Shown here piece by piece: positions 9,865-61,959 of a DNA stretch of 64,000 nt. A program made the translations under genes and the position numbers. The DNA comes from Meghimatium bilineatum (taxonomy: Eukaryota > Mollusca > Gastropoda > Stylommatophora > Philomycidae): contig CM067307.1 in assembly GCA_034231615.1 (NCBI GenBank), positions 3,125,147 through 3,189,146 on the forward strand, in the 5' to 3' direction. Numbering within the stretch: position 1 is the stretch's first letter; each line of letters begins with the position of its first letter. Below the pieces are notes generated by a model. It made no database searches and was not told the origin of the DNA. It worked only from the letters and a program-made list of their open reading frames with translations.

Positions 9865-12800
9865 GAGAAAGAAGGAAAATAGCAACTCATGGTTTACCAC
9901 GCATCAGTAATATCATCACTCATTAATGCCTGTGAAACATGGACAGTATATGCCAGACACTCTATAAAACTCAACCACTTCCACCTAATGTACCTTCGTA
10001 AGATGCTCAACATCCATTGATGGGATAAAATACCAGAGAGTGAAGTACTGATGACATCTAAGTCTGTACGCAAACATACAATGTTGATGAAGGCCCAGAC
10101 ACGCGAGGCAGAACACATGGACCATATGACAGATCATCGTCTACCAAGAAATGTTTTATTTGGAGAACATCAGACTGGTTCCCGCAAGGCAGGAGGACAG
10201 AAGAAATGTTTTATTTGGAGAACATCAGACTGGTTCCCGCATGGCAGGAGGACAGAAGAAATGTTTTATTTGGAGAACATCAGACTGGTTCCCGCAAGGC
10301 AGGAGGACAGAAGAAATGTTTTATTTGGAGAACATCAGACTGGTTCCCGCAAGGCAGGAGGACAGAAGAAATGTTTTATTTGGAGAACATCAGACTGGTT
10401 CCCGCAAGGCAGGAGGACAGAAGAAATGTTTTATTTGGAGAACATCAGACTGGTTCCCGCAAGGCAGGAGGACAGAAGAAATGTTTTATTTGGAGAACAT
10501 CAGACTGGTTCCCGCAAGGCAGGAGGACAGAAGAAATGTTTTATTTGGAGAACATCAGACTGGTTCCCGCAAGGCAGGAGGACAGAAGAAATGTTTTATT
10601 TGGAGAACATCAGACTGGTTCCCGCAAGGCAGGAGGACAGAAGAAATGTTTCATTTGGAGAACATCAGACTGGTTCCCGCAAGGCAGGAGGACAGAAGAA
10701 ATGTTTTATTTGGAGAACATCAGACTGGTTCCCGCAAGGCAGGAGGACAGAAGAAATGTTTTATTTGGAGAACATCAGACTGGTTCCCGCAAGGCAGGAG
10801 GACAGAAGAAATGTTTTATTTGGAGAACATCAGACTGGTTCCCGCAAGGCAGGAGGACAGAAGAAATGTTTTATTTGGAGAACATCAGACTGGTTCCCGC
10901 AAGGCAGGAGGACAGAAGAAATGTTTTATTTGGAGAACATCAGACTGGTTCCCGCAAGGCAGGAGGACAGAAGAAATGTTTTATTTGGAGAACATCAGAC
11001 TGGTTCCCGCAAGGCAGGAGGACAGAAGAAATGTTTTATTTGGAGAACATCAGACTGGTTCCCGCAAGGCAGGAGGACAGAAGAAATGTTTTATTTGGAG
11101 AACATCAGACTGGTTCCCGCAAGGCAGGAGGACAGAAGAAATGTTTTATTTGGAGAACATCAGACTGGTTCCCGCAAGGCAGGAGGACAGAAGAAATGTT
11201 TTATTTGGAGAACATCAGACTGGTTCCCGCATGGCAGGAGGACAGAAGAAATGTTTTATTTGGAGAACATCAGACTGGTTCCCGCAAGGCAGGAGGACAG
11301 AAGAAATGTTTTATTTGGAGAACATCAGACTGGTTCCCGCAAGGCAGGAGGACAGAAGAAATGTTTTATTTGGAGAACATCAGACTGGTTCCCGCAAGGC
11401 AGGAGGACAGAAGAAATGTTTTATTTGGAGAACATCAGACTGGTTCCCGCAAGGCAGGAGGACAGAAGAAATGTTTTACTTGGAGAACATCAGACTGGTT
11501 CCCGCAAGGCAGGAGGACAGAAGAAATGTTTTATTTGGAGAACATCAGACTGGTTCCCGCAAGGCAGGAGGACAGAAGACATGTTTTATTTGGAGAACAT
11601 CAGACTGGTTCCCGCAAGGCAGGAGGACAGAAGAAATGTTTTATTTGGAGAACATCAGACTGGTTCCCGCAAGGCAGGAGGACAGAAGAAATGTTTTATT
11701 TGGAGAACATCAGACTGGTTCCCGCAAGGCAGGAGGACAGAAGAAATGTTTTATTTGGAGAACATCAGACTGGTTCCCGCAAGGCAGGAGGACAGAAGAA
11801 ATGTTTTATTTGGAGAACATCAGACTGGTTCCCGCAAGGCAGGAGGACAGAAGAAATGTTTTATTTGGAGAACATCAGACTGGTTCCCGCAAGGCAGGAG
11901 GACAGAAGAAATGTTTTATTTGGAGAACATCAGACTGGTTCCCGCAAGGCAGGAGGACAGAAGAAATGTTTTATTTGGAGAACATTAGACTGGTTCCCGC
12001 AAGGCAGGAGGACAGAAGAAATGTTTTATTTGGAGAACATCAGACTGGTTCCCGCAAGGCAGGAGGACAGAAGAAATGTTTTATTTGGAGAACATCAGAC
12101 TGGTTCCCGCAAGGCAGGAGGACAGAAGAAATGTTTTATTTGGAGAACATCAGACTGGTTCCCGCAAGGCAGGAGGACAGAAGAAATGTTTTATTTGGAG
12201 AACATCAGACTGGTTCCCGCAAGGCAGGAGGACAGAAGAAATGTTTTATTTGGAGAACATCAGACTGGTTCCCGCAAGGCAGGAGGACAGAAGAAATGTT
12301 TTATTTGGAGAACATCAGACTGGTTCCCGCAAGGCAGGAGGACAGAAGAAATGTTTTATTTGGAGAACATCAGACTGGTTCCCGCAAGGCAGGAGGACAG
12401 AAGAAATGTTTTATTTGGAGAACATCAGACTGGTTCCCGCAAGGCAGGAGGACAGAAGAAATGTTTTATTTGGAGAACATCAGACTGGTTCCCGCAAGGC
12501 AGGAGGACAGAAGAAATGTTTTATTTGGAGAACATCAGACTGGTTCCCGCAAGGCAGAAGGACAGAAGAAATGTTTTATTTGGAGAACATCAGACTGGTT
12601 CCCGCATGGCAGGAGGACAGAAGAAATGTTTTATTTGGAGAACATCAGACTGGTTCCCGCAAGGCAGGAGGACAGAAGAAATGTTTTATTTGGAGAACAT
12701 CAGACTGGTTCCCGCAAGGCAGGAGGACAGAAGAAATGTTTTATTTGGAGAACATCAGACTGGTTCCCGCAAGGCAGGAGGACAGAAGAAATGTTTTATT

Positions 12801-15800
12801 TGGAGAACATCAGACTGGTTCCCGCAAGGCAGGAGGACAGAAGAAATGTTTTATTTGGAGAACATCAGACTGGTTCCCGCAAGGCAGGAGGACAGAAGAA
12901 ATGTTTTATTTGGAGAACATCAGACTGGTTCCCGCAAGGCAGGAGGACAGAAGAAATGTTTTATTTGGAGAACATCAGACTGGTTCCCGCAAGGCAGGAG
13001 GACAGAAGAAATGTTTTATTTGGAGAACATCAGACTGGTTCCCGCAAGGCAGGAGGACAGAAGAAATGTTTTATTTGGAGAACATCAGACTGGTTCCCGC
13101 AAGGCAGGAGGACAGAAGACATGTTTTATTTGGAGAACATCAGACTGGTTCCCGCAAGGCAGGAGGACAGAAGAAATGTTTTATTTGGAGAACATCAGAC
13201 TGGTTCCCGCAAGGCAGGAGGACAGAAGAAATGTTTTATTTGGAGAACATCAGACTGGTTCCCGCAAGGCAGGAGGACAGAAGAAATGTTTTATTTGGAG
13301 AACATCAGACTGGTTCCCGCAAGGCAGGAGGACAGAAGAAATGTTTTATTTGGAGAACATCAGACTGGTTCCCGCAAGGCAGGAGGACAGAAGAAATGTT
13401 TTATTTGGAGAACATCAGACTGGTTCCCGCAAGGCAGGAGGACAGAAGAAATGTTTTATTTGGAGAACATCAGACTGGTTCCCGCAAGGCAGGAGGACAG
13501 AAGAAATGTTTTATTTGGAGAACATTAGACTGGTTCCCGCAAGGCAGGAGGACAGAAGAAATGTTTTATTTGGAGAACATCAGACTGGTTCCCGCAAGGC
13601 AGGAGGACAGAAGAAATGTTTTATTTGGAGAACATCAGACTGGTTCCCGCAAGGCAGGAGGACAGAAGAAATGTTTTATTTGGAGAACATCAGACTGGTT
13701 CCCGCAAGGCAGGAGGACAGAAGAAATGTTTTATTTGGAGAACATCAGACTGGTTCCCGCAAGGCAGGAGGACAGAAGAAATGTTTTATTTGGAGAACAT
13801 CAGACTGGTTCCCGCAAGGCAGGAGGACAGAAGAAATGTTTTATTTGGAGAACATCAGACTGGTTCCCGCAAGGCAGGAGGACAGAAGAAATGTTTTATT
13901 TGGAGAACATCAGACTGGTTCCCGCAAGGCAGGAGGACAGAAGAAATGTTTTATTTGGAGAACATCAGACTGGTTCCCGCAAGGCAGGAGGACAGAAGAA
14001 ATGTTTTATTTGGAGAACATCAGACTGGTTCCCGCAAGGCAGGAGGACAGAAGAAATGTTTTATTTGGAGAACATCAGACTGGTTCCCGCAAGGCAGAAG
14101 GACAGAAGAAATGTTTTATTTGGAGAACATCAGACTGGTTCCCGCATGGCAGGAGGACAGAAGAAATGTTTTATTTGGAGAACATCAGACTGGTTCCCGC
14201 AAGGCAGGAGGACAGAAGAAATGTTTTATTTGGAGAACATCAGACTGGTTCCCGCAAGGCAGGAGGACAGAAGAAATGTTTTATTTGGAGAACATCAGAC
14301 TGGTTCCCGCAAGGCAGGAGGACAGAAGAAATGTTTTATTTGGAGAACATCAGACTGGTTCCCGCAAGGCAGGAGGACAGAAGAAATGTTTTATTTGGAG
14401 AACATCAGACTGGTTCCCGCAAGGCAGGAGGACAGAAGAAATGTTTTATTTGGAGAACATCAGACTGGTTCCCGCAAGGCAGGAGGACAGAAGAAATGTT
14501 TTATTTGGAGAACATCAGACTGGTTCCCGCAAGGCAGGAGGACAGAAGAAATGTTTTATTTGGAGAACATCAGACTGGTTCCCGCAAGGCAGGAGGACAG
14601 AAGAAATGTTTTATTTGGAGAACATCAGACTGGTTCCCGCAAGGCAGGAGGACAGAAGAAATGTTTTATTTGGAGAACATCAGACTGGTTCCCGCAAGGC
14701 AGGAGGACAGAAGAAATGTTTTATTTGGAGAACATCAGACTGGTTCCCGCAAGGCAGGAGGACAGAAGAAATGTTTTATTTGGAGAACATCAGACTGGTT
14801 CCCGCAAGGCAGGAGGACAGAAGAAATGTTTTATTTGGAGAACATCAGACTGGTTCCCGCAAGGCAGGAGGACAGAAGAAATGTTTTATTTGGAGAACAT
14901 CAGACTGGTTCCCGCAAGGCAGGAGGACAGAAGAAATGTTTTATTTGGAGAACATCAGACTGGTTCCCGCAAGGCAGGAGGACAGAAGAAATGTTTTATT
15001 TGGAGAACATCAGACTGGTTCCCGCAAGGCAGGAGGACAGAAGAAATGTTTTATTTGGAGAACATCAGACTGGTTCCCACAAGGCAGGAGGACAGAAGAA
15101 ATGTTTTATTTGGAGAACATCAGACTGGTTCCCGCATGGCAGGAGGACAGAAGAAATGTTTTATTTGGAGAACATCAGACTGGTTCCCGCAAGGCAGGAG
15201 GACAGAAGAAATGTTTTATTTGGAGAACATCAGACTGGTTCCCGCAAGGCAGGAGGACAGAAGAAATGTTTTATTTGGAGAACATCAGACTGGTTCCCGC
15301 AAGGCAGGAGGACAGAAGAAATGTTTTATTTGGAGAACATCAGACTGGTTCCCGCAAGGCAGGAGGACAGAAGAAATGTTTTATTTGGAGAACATCAGAC
15401 TGGTTCCCGCAAGGCAGGAGGACAGAAGAAATGTTTTATTTGGAGAACATCAGACTGGTTCCCGCAAGGCAGGAGGACAGAAGAAATGTTTTATTTGGAG
15501 AACATCAGACTGGTTCCCGCAAGGCAGGAGGACAGAAGAAATGTTTTATTTGGAGAACATCAGACTGGTTCCCGCAAGGCAGGAGGACAGAAGAAATGTT
15601 TTATTTGGAGAACATCAGACTGGTTCCCGCAAGGCAGGAGGACAGAAGAAATGTTTTATTTGGAGAACATCAGACTGGTTCCCGCAAGGCAGGAGGACAG
15701 AAGAAATGTTTTATTTGGAGAACATCAGACTGGTTCCCGCAAGGCAGGAGGACAGAAGAAATGTTTTATTTGGAGAACATCAGACTGGTTCCCGCAAGGC

Positions 15801-18800
15801 AGGAGGACAGAAGAAATGTTTTATTTGGAGAACATCAGACTGGTTCCCGCAAGGCAGGAGGACAGAAGAAATGTTTTATTTGGAGAACATCAGACTGGTT
15901 CCCGCAAGGCAGGAGGACAGAAGAAATGTTTTATTTGGAGAACATTAGACTGGTTCCCGCAAGGCAGGAGGACAGAAGAAATGTTTATTTGGAGAACATC
16001 AGACTGGTTCCCGCAAGGCAGGAGGACAGAAGAAATGTTTTATTTGGAGAACATCAGACTGGTTCCCGCAAGGCAGGAGGACAGAAGAAATGTTTTATTT
16101 GGAGAACATCAGACTGGTTCCCGCAAGGGCAGGAGGACAGAAGAAATGTTTTATTTGGAGAACATCAGACTGGTTCCCGCAAGGCAGGAGGACAGAAGAA
16201 ATGTTTTATTTGGAGAACATCAGACTGGTTCCAGCAAGGCAGGAGGACAGAAGAAATGTTTTATTTGGAGAACATCAGACTGGTTCCCGCAAGGCAGGAG
16301 GACAGAAGAAATGTTTTATTTGGAGAACATCAGACTGGTTCCCGCAAGGCAGGAGGACAGAAGAAATGTTTTATTTGGAGAACATCAGACTGGTTCCCGC
16401 AAGGCAGGAGGACAGAAGAAATGTTTTATTTGGAGAACATCAGACTGGTTCCCGCAAGGCAGGAGGACAGAAGAAATGTTTTATTTGGAGAACATCAGAC
16501 TGGTTCCCGCAAGGCAGGAGGACAGAAGAAATGTTTATTTGGAGAACATCAGACTGGTTCCCGCAAGGCAGGAGGACAGAAGAAATGTTTTATTTGGAGA
16601 ACATCAGACTGGTTCCCGCAAGGCAGGAGGACAGAAGAAATGTTTTATTTGGAGAACATCAGACTGGTTCCCGCAAGGCAGGAGGACAGAAGAAATGTTT
16701 TATTTGGAGAACATCAGACTGGTTCCCGCAAGCAGGAGGACAGAAGAAATGTTTTATTTGGAGAACATCAGACTGGTTCCCGCAAGGCAGGAGGACAGAA
16801 GAAATGTTTTATTTGGAGAACATCAGACTGGTTCCCGCAAGGCAGGAGGACAGAAGAAATGTTTTATTTGGAGAACATCAGACTGGTTCCCGCAAGGCAG
16901 GAGGACAGAAGAAATGTTTATTTGGAGAACATCAGACTGGTTCCCGCAAGGCAGGAGGACAGAAGAAATGTTTTATTTGGAGAACATCAGACTGGTTCCC
17001 GCAAGGCAGGAGGACAGAAGAAATGTTTTATTTGGAGAACATCAGACTGGTTCCCGCAAGGCAGGAGGACAGAAGAAATGTTTTATTTGGAGAACATCAG
17101 ACTGGTTCCCGCAAGGCAGGAGGACAGAAGAAATGTTTTATTTGGAGAACATCAGACTGGTTCCCGCAAGGCAGGAGGACAGAAGAAATGTTTTATTTGG
17201 AGAACATCAGACTGGTTCCCGCAAGGCAGGAGGACAGAAGAAATGTTTTATTTGGAGAACATCAGACTGGTTCCCGCAAGGCAGGAGGACAGAAGAAATG
17301 TTTTATTTGGAGAACATCAGACTGGTTCCCGCAAGGCAGGAGGACAGAAGAAATGTTTTATTTGGAGAACATCAGACTGGTTCCCGCAAGGCAGGAGGAC
17401 AGAAGAAATGTTTTATTTGGAGAACATCAGACTGGTTCCCGCAAGCAGGAGGACAGAAGAAATGTTTTATTTGGAGAACATCAGACTGGTTCCCGCAAGG
17501 CAGGAGGACAGAAGAAATGTTTTATTTGGAGAACATCAGACTGGTTCCCGCAAGGCAGGAGGACAGAAGAAATGTTTTATTTGGAGAACATCAGACTGGT
17601 TCCCACAAGGCAGGAGGACAGAAGAAATGTTTTATTTGGAGAACATCAGACTGGTTCCCGCATGGCAGGAGGACAGAAGAAATGTTTTATTTGGAGAACA
17701 TCAGACTGGTTCCCGCAAGGCAGGAGGACAGAAGAAATGTTTTATTTGGAGAACATCAGACTGGTTCCCGCAAGGCAGGAGGACAGAAGAAATGTTTTAT
17801 TTGGAGAACATCAGACTGGTTCCCGCAAGGCAGGAGGACAGAAGAAATGTTTTATTTGGAGAACATCAGACTGGTTCCCGCAAGGCAGGAGGACAGAAGA
17901 AATGTTTTATTTGGAGAACATCAGACTGGTTCCCGCAAGGCAGGAGGACAGAAGAAATGTTTTATTTGGAGAACATCAGACTGGTTCCCGCAAGGCAGGA
18001 GGACAGAAGAAATGTTTTATTTGGAGAACATCAGACTGGTTCCCGCAAGGCAGGAGGACAGAAGAAATGTTTTATTTGGAGAACATCAGACTGGTTCCCG
18101 CAAGGCAGGAGGACAGAAGAAATGTTTTATTTGGAGAACATCAGACTGGTTCCCGCAAGGCAGGAGGACAGAAGAAATGTTTTATTTGGAGAACATCAGA
18201 CTGGTTCCCGCAAGGCAGGAGGACAGAAGAAATGTTTTATTTGGAGAACATCAGACTGGTTCCCGCAAGGCAGGAGGACAGAAGAAATGTTTTATTTGGA
18301 GAACATCAGACTGGTTCCCGCAAGGCAGGAGGACAGAAGAAATGTTTTATTTGGAGAACATCAGACTGGTTCCCGCAAGGCAGGAGGACAGAAGAAATGT
18401 TTTATTTGGAGAACATCAGACTGGTTCCCGCAAGGCAGGAGGACAGAAGAAATGTTTTATTTGGAGAACATCAGACTGGTTCCCGCAAGGCAGGAGGACA
18501 GAAGAAATGTTTTATTTGGAGAACATCAGACTGGTTCCCGCAAGGCAGGAGGACAGAAGAAATGTTTTATTTGGAGAACATCAGACTGGTTCCCGCAAGG
18601 CAGGAGGACAGAAGAAATGTTTTATTTGGAGAACATCAGACTGGTTCCCGCAAGGCAGGAGGACAGAAGAAATGTTTTATTTGGAGAACATCAGACTGGT
18701 TCCCGCAAGGCAGGAGGACAGAAGAAATGTTTTATTTGGAGAACATCAGACTGGTTCCAGCAAGGCAGGAGGACAGAAGAAATGTTTTATTTGGAGAACA

Positions 18801-19945
18801 TCAGACTGGTTCCCGCAAGGCAGGAGGACAGAAGAAATGTTTTATTTGGAGAACATCAGACTGGTTCCCGCAAGGCAGGAGGACAGAAGAAATGTTTTAT
18901 TTGGAGAACATCAGACTGGTTCCCGCAAGGCAGGAGGACAGAAGAAATGTTTTATTTGGAGAACATCAGACTGGTTCCCGCAAGGCAGGAGGACAGAAGA
19001 AATGTTTTATTTGGAGAACATCAGACTGGTTCCCGCAAGGCAGGAGGACAGAAGAAATGTTTTATTTGGAGAACATCAGACTGGTTCCCGCAAGGCAGGA
19101 GGACAGAAGAAATGTTTTATTTGGAGAACATCAGACTGGTTCCCGCAAGGCAGGAGGACAGAAGAAATGTTTTATTTGGAGAACATCAGACTGGTTCCCG
19201 CAAGGCAGGAGGACAGAAGAAATGTTTTATTTGGAGAACATCAGACTGGTTCCCGCAAGGCAGGAGGACAGAAGAAATGTTTTATTTGGAGAACATCAGA
19301 CTGGTTCCCGCAAGGCAGGAGGACAGAAGAAATGTTTTATTTGGAGAACATCAGACTGGTTCCCGCAAGGCAGGAGGACAGAAGAAATGTTTTATTTGGA
19401 GAACATCAGACTGGTTCCCGCAAGGCAGGAGGACAGAAGAAATGTTTTATTTGGAGAACATCAGACTGGTTCCCGCAAGGCAGGAGGACAGAAGAAATGT
19501 TTTATTTGGAGAACATCAGACTGGTTCCCGCAAGGCAGGAGGACAGAAGAACTGTTTTATTTGGAGAACATCAGACTGGTTCCCGCAAGGCAGGAGGACA
19601 GAAGAAATGTTTTAAAGTCACTCTTAAGACTTTACTGACTCACTTTAAAATATACAAAGATTCATGGGAGAATCTTGCACAAGACAGATCTAACTGACGT
19701 CGTAGTATCAAGAATGGTGTAGCAGAGAACCTCAGACAAAATGATGAGGAAAGCAAGCGTGCTAGAAGAAAGGCATGGGCTGCTCAATGTCCCACAGTCT
19801 TCTCCCACATATTCTCAGAGTGTGGTAGACAATTTCAAGCACGCACAGGGCTTATTAGTCACAGTCGGGCGCAGTGCAGACATCAGCATCCTCATCATTA
19901 CCCCAGTTGAGATGAATGCACATCGTTGGCTACGGAGAACGAGCA
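9865..19945 (+). mobile_element. non-LTR retrotransposon (LINE) ORF2 C-terminal fragment, interrupted by a 55-bp satellite
   Basis: Before the array, the + strand (about 9890-10175) encodes motifs typical of the region after the reverse transcriptase of invertebrate LINEs: SLINACETWTVY, LNHFHLMYLRKML, WDKIPESEVL and DHRLPRNVLFGE. After the array the same protein resumes with TLLTHFKIYKDSWENLAQDRS, then a charged Arg-rich stretch (SKRARRKAWAAQ), then a Cys/His C-terminus around CPTVFSHIFSECG and QARTGLISHSRAQC, resembling the C2H2 tail of such elements. Stops interrupt both parts (one after KMLNIH; one TGA at 19695 in place of the expected Trp codon), so the copy is dead. The related copy at 45.6-46.6 kb shows the same order without the array. 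The 5' part of the element is missing. Confidence 0.85.
10146..19614 (+). repeat. 55-bp satellite grown inside a LINE, about 172 units
   Basis: The unit is 55 bp and reads, in the LINE frame, RNVLFGEHQTGSRKAGGQKK, which aligns with YGELEKGMRSQGGQRKR in the LINE copy at 46.2 kb. The array therefore consists of repeated LINE coding sequence. The 13-mer AAGAAATGTTTTA occurs once per unit and also at the junction with the right flank (19602-19614), where the LINE protein continues as KKCFK. Because 55 is not a multiple of three and no frame has a stop, three units translate to a 55-aa period in every + frame, giving artefact ORFs of up to 3163 aa. Units are nearly identical to about 15.98 kb; several with one-base changes in length (for example near 15984 and 16128) lie between 15.98 and 17.45 kb. 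Confidence 0.97.
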
Positions 19946-23425: not shown

Positions 23426-24942
23426 CTATACATTGTAAATCGGTTGCAACTGTAGCCCACGAATTAAGTCCGCTGCCTTTTCGCCTATCATCATCGCTGC
23501 AGCGTTAGTATTTGCAGACACAATATATGGCATGATTGATGTGTCGGCTACTCGTAATTTGTCTATTCCTCGAACCCTCAGTTGAGAGTCGACCACAGCT
23601 GACGAGTCATTAGCTGGGCCCATCTTGCAGGTTCCTACATAGTGAAATACAGTGTTTGGTCGGGATCTTATAACACACGCCCAGTGTTCACTAGATCCAA
23701 CAGAATATTCACTGCAGACTCTGATCTGACGGGTGTCCGCTATCCTAGCTCGTATGCTAGACAAAGCTTTTGTGTCAGCGAGTTTCTTACAAATCTCCAC
23801 CCCTTTAAGCATTATCTCCATTTCCTCTTTCCTCTGATAGTAGTTGGGGTATATTAGAGGATGATCAAAAGGATCCCTGCTTCGTAACTTAATCTCGCCT
23901 CTACTAGCAGGACGCATTGGACAAGGCAAACACACAAAACCGTTAGCAATATTGTCTCTATAAGAATAATCGTTCATGACATCAGAATTGACGTTAGCGC
24001 TGGCTAGAAACGCTGAATCCACGTCATTTCCCCGTGTGACGAACATTATTTGCAGATCTGGCCAATCTTTAAGTTTACTTTCTTCAGTCACTGACGTAAA
24101 GAACAATACAGTGCCACCAAACGTTGACAGTTTTCCTGTTCTCAGAAATTTATACTTAAGAAATTCCCAAGTGTCATTCCAACTAGAATCGTAAGTTCCG
24201 TCTGTGCGTTCAAATTCTACTAGAATGTCGTGAAGTGTATGGTCATGTAGATTTTTGCCAACAGGAAGATCTTTCACTACTGGAATGTTGAATACATCTA
24301 GTTCTTTCTTTGGTCCAATACCAGACAGCATTAGAATCTGAGGCGTTTCAAGAGCACCAGCTGACAGCACAATCTCCTTGCGTGCCTGCACCACAAACTT
24401 TCGTCCATTTTGAATAAGTTCTACAGACTCCGCCTTGCTATTGTTTATTATAACCCTCTGTACACGAGAGTTCAGGGCGATATTTAAATTGGATCTGTGT
24501 AGAAACGGACGCAGAAATGATCGACCTGTGTTTGATCTTTCCCCATTTTCAATGTTTTCCTGCACTGTTGTGAAACCTTCCATGGTTTTTCCATTGTAAT
24601 CTTCGTTATACGGATATCCTAATTCTCGAAATCCTTCCATGATCTTCTGTGCAAGAGGAATTTGGCTGTCACCTTGCGTGATTCCTACCATCCCTTCCGT
24701 CCCGTGGTAAACCGACTTCGACAACTTAGGACTTGTCATCTTCTCAGATCGCTTGAAGTAGGGTAGAACATGGTTATAATTCCAAGTAGGGTCTTGTGTG
24801 TATTCTGCCCATCGATCAAAATCATGTCTTGAACCCCTGACATACAACATGAAGTTGATACTGCTACTTCCGCCAAGGGCTCTACCTCTCGGCCATATTG
24901 CCTGTCCATTCTTTAGACCTTTGAAATTGGTCTTGTCAGGAG
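23426..24942 (-). CDS. GMC oxidoreductase exon 3 (terminal)
   Basis: 1517 bp, preceded by the acceptor TCTCTTTCAG. It begins [19 protein letters not shown] and runs uninterrupted to the stop at 23428-23426 (last residues IYNV). It carries both GMC signatures and the whole substrate-binding and catalytic part. An internal Met at 24850 would give a shorter 474-aa frame, but that start would drop signature 1 and the flavin fold, so the spliced form is preferred. Confidence 0.93.
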
Positions 24943-27900
24943 CTGAAAGAGATTACAATAATAGTGTACACAAGATGTAATTGTATTACTTACAATTATA
25001 CAAGATAAAGTAAACAAAATACACTAAGTAGTAAAATTACGATTAGAAAATACATGAACTCAGCGTTTCGACCAAAAAGTCTCTATCAAAATAGATATCT
25101 ACACTGAAGCCGGGGTAGTATAATGTTAAGTAATTCGCCAGCTGACCAGGAAACCCGGGTTTACTCGTTATTCGTAGTTTGAAAAAACAAATTACTCTCA
25201 TCACTCACCGAGACGCCAAGAAGTAGGAACCATGATTCATGCGCTGGACAGGTTGAGGAAAGCCGGTCAGTTTCTGGGCAACCACTGACTAGGCAATTTC
25301 TGGGCAACCATTGATTAGGCAGCTTGTGGGTAACCATTGGCTAGGCAGCTGAGTAGTTTTTGGGGAAACTGTTTGCGATAATACTTTGTTCATATCTCAT
25401 ATCTCGTTACCTTTACGTCCATATTTATGTACATCGATAAATAACAAAATCTATGCTGAGTTTGTGGATTAAGTACAGTGACGTCGCAACACTATGTGAG
25501 TACACATAGGTGCACATTCTCTTGTAGGTGATAACATGTATGCGTGATGATAGATCCTGCATCCGATTGTTGTGCAAACATCTCTGCGGTAATTTCCCTA
25601 GCTTAGTTATGAAGAAATCACTAGTGTATTCAAGATGTTGAGGGATTGAAATTTGCCCTCGATATCTTCTTTATAGAATATGTTTGTTTCCGAGAATCCC
25701 TGGAGATTATCGTTTGAAGCTACGGAGTTACGTGCTGTGAGTTGTACTATATGCTGGCCGCGCGCCTCTTTATTCAGAGAGATGGTCTACATATTGGGTA
25801 ATGAGAGTACAATTAAATGAATCCTCTACCTCTCTGGAGAAGAATGTCTCATCTGTCTAAAATGTCCCTTATTAAATTTAATCACGTTGTTGTTTTTTCT
25901 CTTTACGTTCTTCCTGAAATTTCTGCAGTTTAGTAGGATGTATTCCTGCAGTTTAGTAGGATTTATTCCTGCAGTTTAGGAGGATGTATTCCTGCAATTT
26001 CGCAGGATTTTTTCTTGCAGTTTAGCACGATGTACTGCTGCAGTGCAGCAGGATGTATCCCTGCAGTTTAACAAGGTGTATTTCTGCAGTTAAGCAGAAT
26101 GTGTTTCGGATATTGGAATGTGTAGATCACGTCCATAAACTGATTTCTTCCAGATTGGCATGCATTCTGTCTCTCAATAACCTTCAAGTAGAAACAGTTA
26201 TTAAATGAAAAATATTTAGTACTTAATAATACATAACCTTTCAGGGTCGTAAGAGTGCCACACTGGAGATCCATCAGGCTCGTAGTGGTGCCACACTGAC
26301 TGTAGTCCCGGCAGGGTCGTAGGGGTGCCACACTGGAGATATCAACACAGATGAGCCTTCAGATACCCCTGTCCTCAGACATTTGGAGGAGTGTAAAAAG
26401 TAATGCCCGGAACATCCCTTGACGTTATTAATCAAGAAATGTATGTGTGCAATTTTGCTCCTTCTCCGACGACTCTTCTATGCAAATTAATCTTAGAAAG
26501 TGAGTCATGTATCGTTACATGTCCACACCAAGACACGTTTACGATTACAATAACCTGCAAGTTTGTTTATTTGTTGTAGGACTAATATATTTGTTGTGTG
26601 TCTATGTAGATAATTGTCAACAAACATCCGTTGTACTTTTTTTCAAAAGTCTGAATTCTTCATTCTATATCCGCATTGAGTGTCCAACTTTCACATCGAT
26701 ACAACTTTCACATCGATACAACTTTCACATCGATACAACTTTCACATCGATACAACTTTCACATCGATACAACTTTCACAGCGATACAACTTTCACATCG
26801 ATACAACTTTCACATCGATACAACTTTCACATCGATACAACTTTCACATCGATATAAAAGTATATTTAGCACTAGTGGAATGGATAAGTCTACCCACAGA
26901 TTTCGAAACTTGTTTGAGAGTAGTAATAATACTTAGCAGGGAATGTAGAGAATGGTGTCCCACAGCTGTGGAGAAAGAGGTGCAGACTTTAGTCAGTGAG
27001 AATACCAAAGAGGGGGATGTGATTATATACACTGATGGATCTGTGATTAGACATGTTCGCAGTGCTTGAGCCTTCACAGCACAGTGCGCAGGTAAAACGA
27101 TGAAGGATGAGAGTGGTACCTTTGCTGTGACTACGAGTACCATGACCATGGCAGTGACCAGGGCATTTGAATGGGTAGTCACACAGAAGGTAACGCAGGT
27201 CTGCATCTTAAGTGACTCTATGAGTATGATTAGGAAGGTACAAGTGGGTCTTGCTTGCGAACAGTGGATTGAGGCCTTGAAAAAGGCGAGGCTGAAAGTG
27301 GTTACATTTATTTTCGTGCCGGAACATGTGAGTGTTCGAAGCACTGAAAGAGCAGATCACCTGTCGTCATGCGCGATTGTGGCACAGAGTGATGGGGTAA
27401 TAGATCGCGCTGATGTTTTGAACTCCATAAGAAATATTGCACGGGAGAGTGAGACCAGTGTGGATCGTGATTCCTTTTCAATGACTAGGATTAAAGATCA
27501 GGGTTTGAAATGCGGTGTTGCTAGAAGTGAACATTTTGAATGGCGCAGAAGAATGATGGTCAACCAGCATAGGACATGTACTCTCAGCAGAAGTGTAATG
27601 GCGTATACACTAAGGAAGAGATCGGAAGTAGCAACTATGGACGTGTCCAGTTTGCAGTGATGAATATCCGACGTCTACTAACTAACTAACTAACTGACTG
27701 ACTGACTGACTGACTAACTGATTGACTGACTGAATTAACTAAACTAACTATATATTGATTATTACTGTAATACCGATCTTATTTTTCCAAATCATATTTA
27801 ACCTTGCCATGGCAACCATGGTCATGGAAAGACTTAACTTAACCTGATGCCCTGAGTTGTCATCATCACTTATATGAAACCCACGATATCTGATTAACTT

Positions 27901-30900
27901 CTTGGCCAGTGAAGATCCTTATACGATGCTCTCCTGGCAGAACGTGACGATGCTGGCGTACCGCTGTACTGGGATGTCGCCTTCGAAGGCCAAACATACG
28001 CACATAATCTCCTAAATATATATATGAACCCCTAGCCCGTGAGTGTTGCAAAGGTACCATGGTGGACGCGTCACCACACAGAGACATGCAGAGATTTATA
28101 TCTTTAACGATGCGGAAAAATAAGGAAAGATTGTAACGTGTTCAGAACTTGATGTATGTTGTCTATGTTCTCTACTTTTCTTCCTACCAATGACTGTTCC
28201 ATGTACCATCTTATTTGACAAGGAATCACTGCTGTCATCACATGACCATATCATCTCCAGATTTCACTAACACAAGTATGCGGATGAGACACCAATCCTT
28301 ATACGAGTTTCGGTGTTATCTCGTTAATCAACAATGTGTTTTTGTCAGAAACGATAATTACTATCAAGAGCTACTTACTCACAGCTATATGAAGTACTGC
28401 TTCAGTGTCATTATCATGAATCATTAGCATCCATCATCATCATCCATCATACTGTTTCACTGATACAACGGCATAACAACAAGTGACATATTAAAAAATC
28501 TACGTATTCAGAAATAATGCCTTCATCAGTGTAAGACATTGAAAAAGATTACACTAAAACTATTAATCACATCGACAGAGTAAGAACCTGTATAAAAGTT
28601 TGCCACAACATCTGGATCCTCCGTCTGGATTAAACGAGCTAATCCAGGAGTGGATATATAAGGATGCCCATTGTCGTCTCCTCCAGCTTCAACAAGCAGC
28701 ACAGTGACATGAGGATTCTCACTAAGTCTGCTAGCTATGACTGCTCCAGCAGAGCCTGCGCCAACTGTCGATACATATTTGAAAAATAGAATATAGATTA
28801 TAATATTATCAATTCATACATAGTTTCTAAAAACACATACTAAACACATAATAACACGTAATAAACACATAACAAACACGTAATAAACACGTAATAAATA
28901 CGTAATAAACACATACTACACACGTAATAAACACATACTACACACGTAATAAACACATACTACACACGTAATAAACACATACTACACACGTAATAAACAC
29001 ATACTACACACGTAATAAACACATACTACACACGTAATAAACACATACTACACACGTAATAAACACATACTACACACGTAATAAACACATACTACACACG
29101 TAATAAACACATACTACACACGTAATAAACACATACTACACACGTAATAAACACATACTACACACGTAATAAACACATACTACACACGTAATAAACACAT
29201 AGTACACACGTAATAAACACATACTACACACGTAATAAACACATAACAAACACGTAATAAACACGTAATAAATACGTAATAAACACATACTACACACGTA
29301 ATAAACACATACTACACACGTAATAAACACATACTACACACGTAATAAACACATACTACACACGTAATAAACACATACTACACACGTAATAAACACATAC
29401 TACACACGTAATAAACACATACTACACACGTAATAAACACATACTACACACGTAATAAACACATACTACACACGTATTAAACACATACTACACACGTAAT
29501 AAACACATACTACACACGTAATAAACACATACTACACACGTAATAAACACATACTACACACGTAATAAACACATACTACACACGTAATAAACACATACTA
29601 CACACGTAATAAACACATACTACACACGTAATAAACACATACTACACACGTAATAAACACATACTACACACGTAATAAACACATAGTACACACGTAATAA
29701 ACACATACTACACACGTAATAAACACATACTACACACGTAATAAACACATACTACACACGTAATAAACACATACTACACACGTAATAAACACATAATACA
29801 TATATACTTAACACATAATAAACGCACAATAAGCTCCCATGTGTGCAACACTCTATCATATTGCCAACTTTGTGTTTGATCTGTATTCAGTTGTTTATTG
29901 CCTTATAAGTTATTTAATTGTATCTTGAACTTCAACTTCACTGCTTTAACACATTTCAGATCTGTAGATTTTTCTGTTATTATACGCACGCGTTTATTCT
30001 TCCGTTACTCTTTCTTCTGTTATTGTTATTCTTGGCTTGCATCTTCTTTTTCTCTCATCTTCCCGTTTTTAGTATTTTCTTTTGTTCCTCTATTACATTA
30101 TATATTATTCTTTTGTAATATTAATTTTCTATCTGTTTCTCATTGGCCTGATGAAGATTTGTTTAGTCGAGACGACTTCTGTGTATGTTTATGTTGTGTG
30201 TTATGTACTTTGTTGGAGCACTCCGTACTTATATATGTTTATAAATCATATCAAATAACGACGCAGCATGTTACGTCACATCAAATCACATCATGGCCAT
30301 ATCGTATCATATCATATGTTATGATATCAGATTATATCACATCCTAATATATTATACTACATCATATACCATCACAAAAATATCATATTGCATTACCTGA
30401 CATTGTAGTGTGTTGTTTTGTATTCCTGGACACTGTAGTCGCATTCCTATTCGCCTTTGTGTTGAATTTTATTACATTGTTTACTAAGATTATGTAATTT
30501 TTTATCTATTATTGATCATTATTCTGACGAAGGTGACAGAGAGAGAACACAGAAGAGAAAGAAATAATAACATATTCAGTAATATTAGCAGTAATAGTAG
30601 ACGTTGTAATAGTAGCAGTAATAGTAGCAATAATAGTAGCAGTAATAGTAGATGTAGTAATAGTAGCAGTAATAGTAGATGTAGTAATAGTAACAGTAAT
30701 AGTAGATGTAGTAATAGTAGCAGTAATATTAGCAGTAATAATAGATGTAGTAATAGTAGCAGTAATAGTAGCAGTAATAGTAGATGTAGTAATAGTAGCA
30801 GTAATAGTAGATGTAGTAATAGTAGCAGTAATAGTAGATGTAGTAATAGTAACAGTAATAGTAGATGTAGTAATAGTAGCAGTAATAGTAGATGTAGTAG

Positions 30901-33211
30901 TAGTAGCAGTAATAATAGATGCAGTAATGGTAGCAGTAATAGTAGCAGTAATAGTAGATGTAGTAATAGTAGCAGTAATAGTAGATGTAGTAATAGTAGC
31001 AGTAATAGTAGATGTAGTAATAGTAGCAGTAATAGTATATGTAGTAATAGTAGCAGTAATAGTAGCAGTAATAGTAGATGTAGTAATAGTAGCAGTAATA
31101 GTAGATGTAGTAATAGTAGCAGTAATAGTAGCAGTAATAGTAGATGTAGTAATAGTAGCAGTAATAGTAGATGTAGTAATAGTAACAGTAATAGTAGATG
31201 TAGTAATAGTAGCAGTAATAGTAGATGTAGTAATGGTAGCAGTAATAGTAGCAGTAATAGTAGATGTAGTAATAGTAGCAGTAATAGTAGATGTAGTAAT
31301 AGTAGCAGTAATAGTAGATGTAGTAATAGTAGCAGTAATAGTAGATGTAGTAATAGTAGCAGTAATAGTAGCAGTAATAGTAGATGTAGTAATAGTAGCA
31401 GTAATAGTAGATGTAGTAATAGTAGCAGTAATAGTATATGTAGTAATAGTAGCAGTAATAGTAGCAGTAATAGTAGCAGTAGTAGTAGATGTATTAATAT
31501 TAGCAGTAATAGTAGCAGTACTATTGGATTTAGTAATAGTAGACATAGTACTAGTTGCAGTTATTGTAAATGCAGTAATAATAGACATAGTACTAGTTGC
31601 AAATATTGTAAATGCAGTAATAGTAGACATAGTACTAGTTGCAGTTATTGTAAATGCAGTAATAATAGTAGCAGTGGTTGATATATCTGCAGCAGGAGTA
31701 TAACCAGTAAAACGATGGTTGTATATGAGAGTTCAGGAGCTGCATGTCAAAGTCGATACAAAACAGCCCAGTAGGAGTAGCAAAGTATATCAGCGATAGC
31801 AGTTAGTTCAAGGTTTGTATCTCTAAAAAGACACACATCAGCACACAAAGGTACAAGCGGGTCTGTGATACATTTGACATACTGCGGGGCACTCTGTGTA
31901 GCTCAGGTTGGTATTGTGAATCACATCTGTCATCGGCACGGATCGTAGAATACATTTTTGTAATACAACAATAATACTATCGTCTGGGAGAATGGAAATG
32001 TGCCTACCACGTAAGAGATGCGTTATACGTCATCATAGTCATGGATCTTATATTGTATTTCTTATAGCACAACACTAATGCTACTATCTGACAGGACGGA
32101 ATAGTGCCTACTACTGTAGCAGCGTCAGCTGTATTAGCAGCTGTATTAGCAGATGTATTAGCAGATGTATTAGCAGCTGTATTAGCAGCTGTATTAGCAG
32201 CTGTATTAGCAGCTGTATTAGCAGATGTATTAGCAGCTGTATTAGCAGCTGTATTAGCAGATGTATTAGCAGCTGTATTAGCAGCTGTATTAGAAGCTGT
32301 ATTAGCAGCTGTATTAGCAGCTGTATTAGCAGCTGTATTAGCAGCTGTATTAGCAGCTGTATTAGCAGCTGTATTAGCAGCTGTATTAGCAGCTGTATTG
32401 CAATCACATTTGTAGTAGCAGTGATGGTAGCAGGAACATTATAATTCGTTGTAGTACATTAATATTACTTACCCACAATGTAGTACATTAATATTACTTA
32501 CCCACAATGTAGTACATTAATATTACTTACCCACAATGTAGTACATTAATATTACTTACCCACAATGTAGTACATTAATATTACTTACCCACAATGTAGT
32601 ACATTAATATTACTTACCCACAATGTAGTACATTAATATTACTTACCCACAATGTAGTACATTAATATTACTTACCCACAATGTAGTACATTAATATTAC
32701 TTACCCACAATGTAGTACATTAATATTACTTACCCACAATGTAGTACATTAATATTACTTACCCACAATGTAGTACATTAATATTACTTACCCACAATGT
32801 AGTACATTAATATTACTTACCCACAATGTAGTACATTAATATTACTTACCCACAATGTAGTACATTAATATTACTTACCCACAATGTAGTACATTAATAT
32901 TACTTACCCACAATGTAGTACATTAATATTACTTACCCACAATGTAGTACATTAATATTACTTACCCACAATGTAGTACATTAATATTACTTACCCACAA
33001 TGTAGTACATTAATATTACTTACCCACAATGTAGTACATTAATATTACTTACCCACAATGTAGTACATTAATATTACTTACCCACAATGTAGTCGTATGA
33101 TGCCTTCGGTCCAGACACAAACGCAGATGTTTCTTTATTATTAGCAACATAATACCACCGGACTAAAGCTGCGGACAGAGCAACAATTACAGCCGTGGAC
33201 ACCAACGACAT
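23426..33211 (-). CDS. GMC (FAD-dependent) oxidoreductase, three exons, 607 aa deduced
   Basis: Exons, in transcript order: 33211-33082, 28764-28588 and 24942-23426. All introns are GT-AG and in phase 1. The protein starts with a hydrophobic N-terminal anchor or signal (about residues 4-23, [14 protein letters not shown]). The FAD-binding motif YDYIVVGAGSAG (39-50) is split by intron 1, and the ribose-binding acid is in [11 protein letters not shown] signature 1 is [11 protein letters not shown] (122-132) and signature 2 is [15 protein letters not shown] (about 298-312). The C-terminal catalytic region has HYVGTCKMG (His-536) and [18 protein letters not shown], so the active-site pair looks like His plus Asn rather than His-His. 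Length and motif order fit choline- or glucose-dehydrogenase-like GMC enzymes, which oxidise an alcohol group using FAD. The substrate cannot be read from sequence. No frameshift or internal stop is present, so the gene appears functional. The introns, 4317 and 3645 bp, are filled with tandem arrays and a LINE fragment. Confidence 0.93.
24943..25910 (-). other. GMC intron 2, part without other genes
   Basis: This is the distal part of intron 2 (28587-24943). It has a three-copy imperfect repeat around CTGGGCAACCACTGACTAGG at about 25270-25350. No exon was found on either strand. Confidence 0.6.
25912..26100. repeat. 23-bp minisatellite, about 8 units
   Basis: Units centre on CCTGCAGTTTAGTAGGATGT and decay progressively to the right (CAATTTCGCAGGA, CAGTGCAGCAGGA). 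It lies in GMC intron 2. Confidence 0.85.
26238..26340. repeat. three-copy repeat of about 30-40 bp
   Basis: GGGTCGTAAGAGTGCCACAC, GGCTCGTAGTGGTGCCACAC and GGGTCGTAGGGGTGCCACAC follow one another in GMC intron 2. Confidence 0.75.
26690..26855. repeat. 17-bp minisatellite, about 10 units
   Basis: The unit is ATCGATACAACTTTCAC, one unit with GCGATA. All + frames are open because 17 is not a multiple of three and the unit lacks stops. The repeat borders the LINE fragment at 26880. Confidence 0.95.
26880..27765 (+). mobile_element. LINE fragment with RNase H domain, in GMC intron 2, antisense to the gene
   Basis: Encodes an RNase H domain: [10 protein letters not shown] (first Asp), [10 protein letters not shown] (third acid) and TERADHL (last Asp), with VTFIFVPEH between them. 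A stop at 27067-27069 replaces the expected Trp in SAWAF. The usual catalytic Glu region reads [10 protein letters not shown] with no Glu, so the domain is inactive. A second frame from 27070 runs to 27660 and includes the conserved tail [10 protein letters not shown]. The 3' end is a TAAC/TGAC tetranucleotide run (27675-27760), which suits I-clade-like LINEs carrying RNase H; clade assignment is inference. Same family as 54431-55216. Confidence 0.8.
27766..28587 (-). other. GMC intron 2, proximal part, no other feature
   Basis: Mostly unique sequence. An open minus-strand frame at 27866-28087 (73 codons) has no recognisable domain. A small CAT/ATC-rich run lies near 28425-28455. Confidence 0.5.
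28588..28764 (-). CDS. GMC oxidoreductase exon 2
   Basis: 177 bp, opened by the acceptor CGACAG and closed by the donor ACAG then GTTCTT, which is GT but weak. It encodes [13 protein letters not shown] through [12 protein letters not shown] to VVANFYT, i.e. the rest of the ADP-binding beta-alpha-beta fold and the start of the substrate region. Phase 1 at both ends matches exons 1 and 3. Confidence 0.9.
28840..29815. repeat. 22-bp minisatellite, about 42 units, in GMC intron 1
   Basis: The unit contains CACGTAATAAACACATACTA. A divergent block with ACATAACAAACACGTAATAA occurs at about 28867-28915 and again at 29243-29290, showing a copied block about 375 bp apart (17 units). Units outside that block are nearly identical. 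Confidence 0.95.
29816..30574. other. GMC intron 1 unique stretch
   Basis: AT-rich. Degenerate ATCATATC-like words lie at 30240-30400. No exon recognised; the longer open frames are low-complexity Phe/Leu/Ser-rich. Confidence 0.5.
30575..31680. repeat. trinucleotide-like array with 27-bp and 12-bp units
   Basis: Built from AGTAATAGTAGC and AGTAATAGTAGATGT blocks. A 27-bp unit is interrupted at intervals by an extra 12-bp AGTAATAGTAGC. Lengths are multiples of three, so frames stay open on both strands (for example SNSSSNSR and TITATITT peptides of 370-390 residues). These have no other protein features. Units become degenerate after 31480. Confidence 0.93.
31681..32118. other. GMC intron 1 unique stretch, nothing recognised
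   Basis: Two loosely similar segments (around 31970-32000 and 32070-32100, both with ACTATC then TCTG and GGA) suggest an old local duplication. No exon. Confidence 0.4.
32120..32399. repeat. 12-bp minisatellite, about 23 units
   Basis: The unit is GCAGCTGTATTA with a few GCAGATGTATTA and one GAAGCTG. It holds a CAGCTG E-box in nearly every unit. The open frames (LAAVLAAV on +, LLIQLLIQ on -) are repeat artefacts. Confidence 0.95.
32452..33090 (-). repeat. 29-bp array of the GMC exon 1 splice-donor junction, about 22 units
   Basis: On the minus strand each unit contains ACATTGTGGGTAAGTAATAT. This is the last codons of exon 1 (TAC ATT GTG G), the donor GTAAGT and the first intron bases. The gene-proximal unit is the real exon boundary (33082/33081); the others lie in intron 1. 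All units appear identical, so the array is young or homogenised. Use of any downstream donor would read through GTG GGT AAG TAA and stop, so only the first donor gives a full-length protein. Confidence 0.93.
33082..33211 (-). CDS. GMC oxidoreductase exon 1
   Basis: 130 bp: ATG at 33211-33209, 43 codons and one base, ending YDYIV before the donor GTAAGT (33081 downward). Joining to exon 2 restores the valine of IVVGAG, which confirms both boundaries. The donor junction is also the seed of the 29-bp array that follows immediately in intron 1. Confidence 0.9.
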
Positions 33212-33840
33212 ACTGGCATTTAAATATTAAGGTTGCATAAGTGTTAACTTATTTTCACACAGAATTGAGACCTGTTATCTTATTTACCAACAATTATTTA
33301 AAAAAAGACTATTCCGTAGATATCCAGAGTTGCAAATCTAGATCAACGATTCTCAACTTGTTTTCACCCTTGCTATTTTTCCAAGTTTCAAGACACATCT
33401 TCTGTGAATGAAATAATTTGGAATTAGATATGAAAATATGAACGATGGATTCCTGCAGGGTAGAGTGTGAATCTTGGTCAACTAGAGAGTCACGGGAACC
33501 ATCAATATGAATACTCTTCGTCATCTAATGGGAGGGGGGATTAGGGATGGACACTAGTGAATTTTTCCAGAAACCAATAATGTTACCTTGTAACCAAAAA
33601 CCGAATAACCACATTTTTCTATACCCGGCTCCGTAAAAAAGAAATTAGTTGACTATGTTTGCAAGTTTTTCAACTGTATTGTTATATTCTTCGTTGTATG
33701 CGCTTATTTTCAGACATCCAACACGAATGTTTCTGCGGTTGCCCTGGGAGAATGATGAAAAAACGTTGTTTTACCGTTTAATTTGGCCCATGTAGACCCA
33801 GAAAATCACATTTCTTCACGCCTTTAAATTTGTTGAGCAT
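33212..33840. other. region upstream of the GMC oxidoreductase start
   Basis: Expected to contain the 5' UTR and promoter of the minus-strand GMC gene. No convincing TATA box or conserved motif could be assigned, and no other gene was recognised. Confidence 0.4.
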
Positions 33841-43250: not shown

Positions 43251-43636
43251 TACAGTGTGGTTTTCGCTGCAGTAAACATATGTGTCTTATTACTGTGTTA
43301 TTATAGTGTATGAATTCAGAATTGATAAGGACTACATTTTTCGTATAATTTTCAATGGACTGTTGAATGTTGACACAATTATACTTGATATATCTAGGAT
43401 ACGAATATTTGGTATTCAGTTTCGTACGTGGATGTCTGAGCGTCATCGATAACAGTGAGAAATGTGTTCAACAATTGCACCTCAAGAAACATCAGTTATA
43501 CATACACTATGATATTTGCCTCAAGAGACTGAGTATCCATAGGTGTGCCCGGAGTGGAACGACTACGACTCGTAATCAATAATCAATGTAGCTGTTAACA
43601 CTTATATTGATATTGTACATGTAATCGATATTTGCG

Positions 43637-45345
43637 TTACAGGAAACGTGTATGTATCTTGTTTGCATCATTTAGTACTAAACCCAGAAGTAAACCAAGC
43701 ATTAAGCTGACAAACCCTGCAGTGTGAAAAATGATTAAAGTTGATGGCGAAGTATTGGACAAAGATTGTTGTGAACTTGCAGCAAGTTGGTTATCAGTTT
43801 CAGCAAAAACAATGAAATCTGAACGAATACAAGAGTCATTTCCTGTGTTGCTACAGTGTGCAGCTATACGTACATGGTTCTCGTAGCTGAAAGAAAATGA
43901 AAACGCCATGAGATAATCATTTTCGTTGGGATACACGGCGATAGCTTGTTGATAAATTGAAGACCTTGGCATATCGTTGCATTATCACACTCCCTAGTTA
44001 TTAACATACTAAGCCTATCATCATTGGCTGGAATATTTTGTACGAGACAATTTCGGTAGATCATCCAATTCAATTTTACCTTGTCTGTAGGTATATTCTT
44101 CTCAACATATCCAGAACACACAGAAATTACAACGCCGGGTCTGGGTGAGGCAATAATTGCCGATCCGTTTGATTGTTTCGAGGCCACAGATACTGTAACT
44201 CGCATATTTTTAACGGGAAACTGCACTTTAATTCTATAGTTCATCCTACTCGTAAAGTCATCTGTATAATGACACTGACAGGAATAGTTTCCTTCGTCCA
44301 CATTCTGAAGAAATAATATTGTCATTAATAAAGTGTACGCTGGTAAATCTCCCGTAATTCTTAACCGCGGGTGATACCGTACACCATACGTGATATTGAT
44401 CTCGTTCATTGTAGCAATATTATACCAGAATTGAGTAATGTACCACATTGTAATTTTGGTTAATGTATACCCTTCTCCAGGCTTATCACATTTGCAAGTC
44501 ACCGTGATGTCTGCACCAATCACTAAATCACCATTAAAGGAAACAGTACCGATTTTTGGAATCCTGAATTCTGGTAATGTAAGGAGATTACAGGAACTAG
44601 TTGTGATGTAGTTACATGAACACATGGAATACGATTTAGTCAGATTCACTACATAATTTTCATTCTCTGGTGTAATTTCGTATGTTACACACGGTGAATT
44701 TTTGTCAGCAACAACAGAACCATTTAAAGAAATTCTTGGATAACAAGGCAATGCAGCATTAATGCAACACAACGTTATATTATTCTTGAATTTCGGTGTT
44801 AAATGAATCCCACAAGACTACATGTTTTCCATAGCCTTGTTACCATTGACACGCAATACCAGAATTCTGTTCCTTAAATTGTAATTAAGTGGTAAAGTAT
44901 GGTTTTTATCACTGTATATAATGTATCCTTTCTTGTTCTCTCATGTACCTCTAATTATCGCTCCACTGTGACTTTTGGAAGCTATAGAAGTGGCAAAAAC
45001 TACAGCCGACCCATCGATTATTCTAACATAGTTACAGTAACAAGTTTTGATAATGGGTTTACAATACTCCATATTAGGTCCAATTGATACTGTGCATAAA
45101 TCTTTGAATCTGCTAGTACCTGCTTTCATAATTTCAAATGTTACGGAAGAATCCCAACCTGCTTCATAGTGTTCAAGATATCGTGGACCGAAATATCCGA
45201 TAATTCTAAACTTAGCGTTGTTCCGCAACAAATTTACAGCACATGATGTTAAGTACCCCATATCACCCAGAATGATTGCCTGAGTATCGATACCTTGTGA
45301 ATTTATAATGAGCAGAAACACTATGGAAAGCATGATTGTCTGCAT
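43637..45345 (-). pseudogene. Ig-like membrane protein copy A, disabled
   Basis: Matches intact copy B along its whole length, but is disabled by TGA at 44941-44943 and TAG at 44818-44820, both where copy B has Trp, and by a 1-base deletion near 43948-43950. It also has a 6-bp in-frame difference after PGEG, and the Cys of FSCSFSY in the second Ig-like domain is replaced by Phe. The start (MQTIMLSIVF) and the membrane segment are preserved. The lesions are few, so loss was recent and followed or accompanied the duplication. Upstream, a LINE derivative is inserted at 45607. Confidence 0.88.
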
Positions 45346-45606
45346 ATTATTGAGACGGGAAGAATAATCAACAAATTGATTAGTTCCAGGAAACTAGAAT
45401 ATGGAGGAGTGAAATTCAGCAGTGCATGGCGAACTATATTATCTTTATCAAGGTTGGACTCCTACAAACACCGCAACGAAACTGTTAAGGGGTGCAGGAA
45501 CTATAAATGTTTTATGACAACAACTCACAATAAACAGCAAGGAACTGTGGTACAGTTCGTATAGAAATAGTTCAGAATTATGATGGTATGATCACTAGCC
45601 TACACA

Positions 45607-59925: not shown

Positions 59926-60173
59926 TATATCTAGGATACGAATATTTGGTATTCAGTTTGGTACGTGGATGTCTGAGCGTCATCGATAACAGTGAGAAAT
60001 GTGTTCAACAATTGCACCTCAAGAAACATCAGTTATACATACACTATGATATTTGCCTCAAGAGACTGAGTATCCATAGGTGTGCCCGGAGTGGAACGAC
60101 TACGACTCGTAATCAATAATCAATATAGCTGTTAACACTTATATTGATATTGTACATGTAATCGATATTTGCG

Positions 60174-61889: not shown

Positions 61890-61959
61890 ATTAATGAGAT
61901 TGCAAGAATAATCAACAAATTGATTAGTTCCAGGAAACTAGAATATGGAGGAGGGAAAT

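Follow-up and report, generated by a model that had tools for sequence, protein, structure and literature searches.

How does a gene stay intact when the donor of its first coding exon is followed by 21 further copies of itself? This question arises in a 64-kb stretch of the genome of the gastropod Meghimatium bilineatum (assembly GCA_034231615.1, contig CM067307.1, positions 3,125,147 to 3,189,146; the whole stretch is hereafter the window), in which the predicted first coding exon of a GMC oxidoreductase gene runs into a 29-bp minisatellite. Each unit of the repeat carries a 5′ splice site, thereby forming a ladder of 22 donors. We favour, with a probability of about 0.78, reading the array as a donor-side "mirage": a minisatellite that started by accident on an exon–intron junction, whose first donor is the one used and for which no function is needed.

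The donor ladder and its gene

Tandem Repeats Finder (TRF) describes the array with a period of 29, 100% matches, no indels, and 22.2 copies; read on the minus strand, it consists of 21 exact full units and one partial unit. Its length equals 22 × 29 + 6, the first and last hexamers both being ACTACA, and identity over these 644 bp is not a matter of chance. Within it, GTAAGT occurs 22 times on the minus strand at 29-nt steps (33081, 33052 ... 32472), accounting for 22 of the 25 minus-strand GTAAGT in the whole window. All 22 donors share an identical context of 35 nt (−12 to +23), made up of 12 exonic or exon-like and 23 intronic nucleotides; widening this context by 1 nt on either side yields two versions. 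The original prediction for this DNA had placed about 22 tandem copies at 32452..33090 and proposed that the 29-bp unit spans the end of exon 1, the GTAAGT donor, and the first intron bases, giving a ladder of identical 5′ splice sites. Its coordinates lie inside the TRF array at 32450-33093 and the description is borne out, with exon 1 overlapped over 12 nt if the boundary in the gene model is correct. In a genome search with the array, in which only the best candidates were scored and common words were skipped, the other listed matches were 64%–73% identical, and the best non-self match was an array built from another unit, 27 bp long.

The GMC gene model was read from the sequence, and transcripts were not its basis. 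Joining the three minus-strand exons is predicted to give 607 codons with no stops, and an in-frame stop lies 5′ of the exon 1 ATG. The spliced protein matches Pfam GMC_oxred_N (PF00732) at 176.9 bits against a cut-off of 23 and GMC_oxred_C (PF05199) at 125.6 bits against a cut-off of 24.6. Position 1 of the GMC_oxred_N profile corresponds to residue 39, which is encoded by exon 1, and alignments to the ten best solved structures begin at residues 35–39 (top structure 8rpf, E 5e-85). Exon 1 supplies the residues up to the DYIVV strand, and thus the array stands at a junction that the enzyme needs. Among the 53 matches listed, the best genome match of each exon is the window itself.

Table 1. 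Coordinates of the donor ladder, the GMC gene model, and neighbouring intron arrays (window positions)
Feature	Position	Strand	Remarks
29-bp minisatellite	32450..33093	(-)	22.2 identical copies; sense unit GTAAGTAATATTAATGTACTACATTGTGG
First donor GTAAGT	33076..33081	(-)	sole one of 22 predicted to join exon 2 in frame without a stop
ACTACA, exonic array edge	33088..33093	(-)	one arm of presumed founding 6-bp direct repeat
ACTACA, intronic array edge	32450..32455	(-)	other arm of presumed founding direct repeat
Coding exon 1 (predicted)	33082..33211	(-)	ATG at 33211, last base 33082, phase 1; last 12 nt in array
Intron 1, 4317 nt	28765..33081	(-)	2965 nt of tandem repeats, four merged arrays
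12-bp array, 22.8 copies	32126..32399		intron 1, beside donor array
27/93/120-bp array	30578..31668		intron 1
22-bp array, 44 copies	28833..29800		intron 1
Coding exon 2 (predicted), 177 nt	28588..28764	(-)	acceptor TATCGACAG, followed by TTGG
Intron 2, 3645 nt	24943..28587	(-)	five smaller arrays, 554 nt
Coding exon 3 (predicted)	23426..24942	(-)	stop codon; most of GMC_oxred_N, all of GMC_oxred_C

Consequences of donor choice

In a test of every donor, donor 1 gave 607 amino acids and donors 2–22 (21 of 21) gave 45 amino acids followed by a stop. The distal-donor frame ends in SYDYIVGK, with the codons GTG GGT AAG TAA, and the immediate in-frame TAA that had been foreseen for any distal donor is therefore found in every case. 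A series of in-frame alternative donors was rejected, since every one of the 21 distal frames terminates after codon 45. The unit of 29 is not a multiple of three, so the frame past a distal donor also varies with the donor. For donors 2, 3, and 4 the stop lies 21, 50, and 79 nt upstream of the exon 1/2 junction. Decay is expected of transcripts in which a stop is followed by a further exon junction, and exon 2 adds one such junction downstream. On the gene model, then, the protein is kept solely when the cap-proximal donor is the outcome.

Pairing with U1 was computed against its 5′-end sequence. Each of the 22 ladder donors forms eight contiguous Watson–Crick pairs, with an energy of −11.9 kcal/mol. 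Of the 790 GTs counted across the gene region, the 768 outside the ladder reach at most seven contiguous pairs and an energy of −10.2 kcal/mol; a total of eight U1 pairs, in non-contiguous form, is also attained by one or more of them. A footprint covering 23 nt on the upstream side and 12 nt on the downstream side is quoted for U1 in a paper whose authors consider it feasible for two sites separated by 33 nt to be occupied together, albeit closely. The 29-nt spacing of the ladder is tighter than 33 nt; neighbouring U1 may exclude each other, and full occupancy is uncertain.

RNA structure as a selector of donor 1 was considered and rejected, since the nine bases of the donor have similar predicted probabilities of being unpaired at all 22 sites. 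Values for donor 1 against the rest were 0.086 versus 0.056–0.098 (W80), 0.032 versus 0.002–0.019 (W150), and 0.015 versus 0.001–0.006 (W240), donor 1 thus being slightly more open in the two longer folding windows. Self-folding of the array was predicted at −231.5 kcal/mol over 778 nt, a value computed without a shuffled control and not used as evidence. Counts of AATAAA gave nothing firm with regard to premature polyadenylation: the sense strand has one in exon 1 (33139, upstream of the ladder), none in the array, and three in the remainder of intron 1, the opposite strand of which has 45.

Origin of the ladder and its relatives

Two ACTACA hexamers lying 29 bp apart around one junction would suffice to found the array by slippage. 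In the proposed course of events, slippage or unequal exchange between ACTACA in exon 1 and ACTACA 29 bp away in the intron would have duplicated the junction (by hand count, a six-base overlap arises by chance about once in 4,000), and the duplicate would then have grown to 22 copies and been homogenised, as the 100% identity suggests. Identity between units points to recent expansion or homogenisation, not to selection. The exon- and cap-proximal first donor would be used in most transcripts, allowing the gene to tolerate the array; the cap-binding complex is cited as helping U1 at the cap-proximal site. The other 21 donors, together with their TAA codons, would be removed as intron, and growth of the array would lengthen the intron alone while splicing stays with the first donor. 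Low-level use of nearby distal donors would yield the truncated frame of 45 amino acids and, presumably, nonsense-mediated decay (NMD).

Minisatellites at exon boundaries have been described before. In amphioxus, "mirages" are tandem repeats spanning exon–intron boundaries in Adh3, the globins BflGb6 and BflGb9, troponin C, and PGBD5; regular splicing is reported to be undisturbed, with reverse transcription PCR support for the globins (PMC3087553, PMC3902484). Length instability between haplotypes or cells is a further mark of mirages. The window array shares two features of a mirage, in that its unit is predicted to span the exon–intron boundary (12 nt in exon 1) and its further units carry splice signals (22 identical GTAAGT). 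The amphioxus cases differ in form, however: units are 10–72 bp in Adh3 and 150–160 bp, in few copies, in the globins, and the PGBD5 repeats are imperfect.

A closer likeness is the variable number tandem repeat (VNTR) in intron 18 of human ABCA7, a 25-bp unit present 23.7 times in the reference, which lies directly after exon 18 and includes the donor (PMC5954066). The donor GT forms the start of the unit. Retaining a single unit shifts the reading frame and leads to a stop; such retention amounts to 2 ± 1%, independent of VNTR length (PMC5954066). Both are minisatellites placed right at an exon end with the donor included, but in ABCA7 the units show slight variation, the exon is an internal one, and length polymorphism has been measured along with effects on splicing and expression, whereas the window units are identical, adjoin the first coding exon, and are known from sequence alone. 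In human IFI6 (6-16), a minisatellite likewise supplies multiple donors, and two downstream repeat units are used (PMC4526556, citing Turri et al. 1995); here the difference is that the downstream donors give known isoforms. Minisatellites with units of about 30 bp, termed variable internal tandem repeats, also alter intron structure at exon–intron boundaries in human segmental duplications (PMC2812944), although these are differences between paralogues, average four units, and in many cases come with alternative transcripts. We regard the window array as a further and very regular member of this known kind, alongside mirages, ABCA7, and IFI6.

The surroundings make such an accident plausible. 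Tandem repeats occupy 53% of the window (43 merged arrays) and 69% of intron 1. When the nine intron arrays were placed randomly in 50,000 trials, with an overhang of up to 12 nt, any of the four splice sites was crossed in 5.9% of trials and donor 1 in 1.3%. An array on a splice site is thus unlikely for a single gene and expected among many genes.

Across the genome (1.61 Gb, 32 contigs), a pattern of three GTAAGT spaced 18–46 nt had 35,611 + 36,781 = 72,392 matches, and the one control, the same pattern reversed, had 57,990 + 61,948 = 119,938. Overlapping matches in one array were counted separately, so that arrays are fewer than matches. Donor-like arrays are therefore abundant in this genome, albeit not enriched against that control.

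Other GMC exons were surveyed for arrays of the same kind. Three of the 53 matches listed belong to the window gene, and 48 of the 50 others were examined (all except C14:55924121 and C22:32089173), some of the stretches overlapping. As a control, 47 of 51 Cpn60_TCP1 (chaperonin) matches were examined, four long or adjoining ones being left out; both counts use match ends in place of splice sites. Tandem repeats make up 16.4% of the sequence around the 48 GMC exon matches and 3.1% around the 47 chaperonin matches. An array lies within 40 bp of the match edge at 8 of the 48 GMC loci, all eight judged by eye, and crosses the junction at two (L029 and L031).

In L029, another GMC gene, positions 1371-1562 hold a diverged 19-bp donor ladder of about ten units, 75% alike. 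The exon match ends at 1374 and the first GTAAGT follows directly; GTRAGT occurs at 1375, 1412, 1488, and 1507, compared with seven occurrences over the remaining 2370 bases, and GTAAGT is kept in the first unit and GTRAGT in four of about ten units. Judged from its sequence, L029 may be an aged form of a ladder such as that in the window. In L031 (1365-1440), the duplication is on the acceptor side, with 1.9 copies of 40 bp at 83%. Arrays abut the junction at two further loci, starting at intron position +4 of the donor in L042 (1117-1200) and ending, pyrimidine-rich, at the acceptor in L053 (1346-1530). In the remaining four (L013, L028, L040, and L049) the array lies beyond the junction, apparently without a copy of it.

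At chaperonin exons an array lies within 40 bp of the match edge in 3 of the 47 loci. In L065 (815-1068) it begins 29 bp past the exon match, and GTAAGGAT is common to the array and that exon's donor; the case is ambiguous and is possibly an old, disrupted donor ladder. L074 has a TA repeat after the donor, and in L092 the array lies upstream of the acceptor. Where minisatellites are dense, arrays that cross exon boundaries turn up repeatedly, and the ladder is likely not exceptional within this genome, being instead an ordinary accident of repeat-rich DNA.

Weighing the explanations

Several observations weigh against an accidental array read through its first donor. Between comparable donors, the intron-proximal one tends to win according to the U1-footprint paper, and this preference, taken alone, predicts use of the distal donors and a broken gene. 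No clear junction-crossing array was found at any of the 47 chaperonin loci, in stretches with 3.1% tandem repeats, which indicates that such arrays are not common at every gene. In ABCA7, moreover, expression is lower and exon-19 skipping more frequent with longer alleles, a cryptic exon-18 acceptor accounts for 14 ± 6% of transcripts, and alternative transcripts combined exceed the canonical one in 90% of samples from one brain region (PMC5954066). Boundary repeats in human duplicated genes can likewise give alternative splicing (PMC2812944).

The strong U1 pairing invites the view that the ladder is a functional platform or rheostat, in which a promoter-near series of donors collects U1 small nuclear ribonucleoproteins (snRNPs), aids recognition of the first intron, and suppresses premature polyadenylation (telescripting) or titrates output by copy number. 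Eight contiguous pairs and −11.9 kcal/mol at all 22 donors, against seven and −10.2 as the best elsewhere, speak for it, as does the AATAAA in exon 1 upstream of the ladder, and copy-number tuning has a precedent in the fall in ABCA7 expression as its donor-bearing VNTR lengthens (PMC5954066). We nevertheless consider this unlikely: triple-GTAAGT matches fall below the one reversed control, the spacing of 29 nt is less than the quoted 35-nt footprint (though two U1 are allowed at 33 nt), identical units bespeak homogenisation rather than selection, and the ABCA7 authors report NMD to be unaffected by length and suggest different routes to lower expression (PMC5954066). Of the interpretation originally offered, what stands is the position of the array right beside the donor of a gene model that is intact, together with the predicted truncation of the protein by distal donors; the proposals of U1 binding, decoy, enhancer, or tuning are little favoured, GTAAGT arrays being common genome-wide. 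Very improbable is the stronger version, in which selection has made the ladder a control of output that copy number can adjust: U1 clustered at 22 equal donors would set the splicing of the first intron and protect the nascent RNA, and ladders would have been gained more than once in GMC genes (the window gene and L029) for that reason.

Regulated unproductive splicing, in which distal donors would be used for stop-containing isoforms that lower output in some tissues, would account for the same early stop arising from all 21 distal donors, and it has parallels in the roughly 2% one-unit retention in ABCA7 (PMC5954066) and in the two downstream units used as donors in IFI6 (PMC4526556). It is improbable, however, given that donors identical over 35 nt leave a regulator little to distinguish and that predicted accessibility is alike among them, with donor 1 slightly more open in the two longer windows. 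We place least weight on an error in the model or the assembly, whereby the gene has a different first exon, or assembly has collapsed or expanded the array. In favour of such an error is the difficulty of assembling arrays whose units are all alike. The predicted exon 1, however, encodes the beginning of the GMC domain in frame, matched from profile position 1, and carries an ATG of its own that is preceded by an in-frame stop; each exon finds its best match in the window itself among those listed, and an assembly error could alter how many copies there are but would scarcely affect the unit at the junction.

Even as the by-product that we favour, the mirage offers a clean natural test of donor choice, with 22 donors in the same 35 nt: any bias in their use must stem from position or wider context (cap distance, exon, transcription order), not from the site. 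The case also illustrates how minisatellites cross exon boundaries in a large genome rich in repeats, L029 being a diverged counterpart.

Other features of the window

The window holds further repeats outside the GMC gene. A 55-bp array at 10146-19614 comprises 172 copies, 99% alike, and three overlapping plus-strand open reading frames (3211, 2028, and 1229 amino acids) run through much of it, even though 55 is not divisible by three. A segment is duplicated at 94.8% identity (43358-45606 and 59895-62155); one copy has a single open frame of 587 amino acids (60177-61937, minus strand), and the other is split into shorter frames. Pfam gave no match for the 587-residue frame or for a 317-residue piece. 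Two plus-strand open-frame stretches, 27070-27660 and 54436-55165, resemble, by eye, each other as well as RNase H parts of non-LTR (long terminal repeat) retrotransposons; Pfam yielded nothing above cut-off for 27070-27660 or for 54436-54687, the part of the second stretch that was scanned. Rfam (gathering thresholds) and ARAGORN scans of the window returned no matches. On the 5′ side of the GMC gene, a short minus-strand open frame (33309-33524) matches the CP2 transcription factor family at 25.6 bits, against a cut-off of 25.

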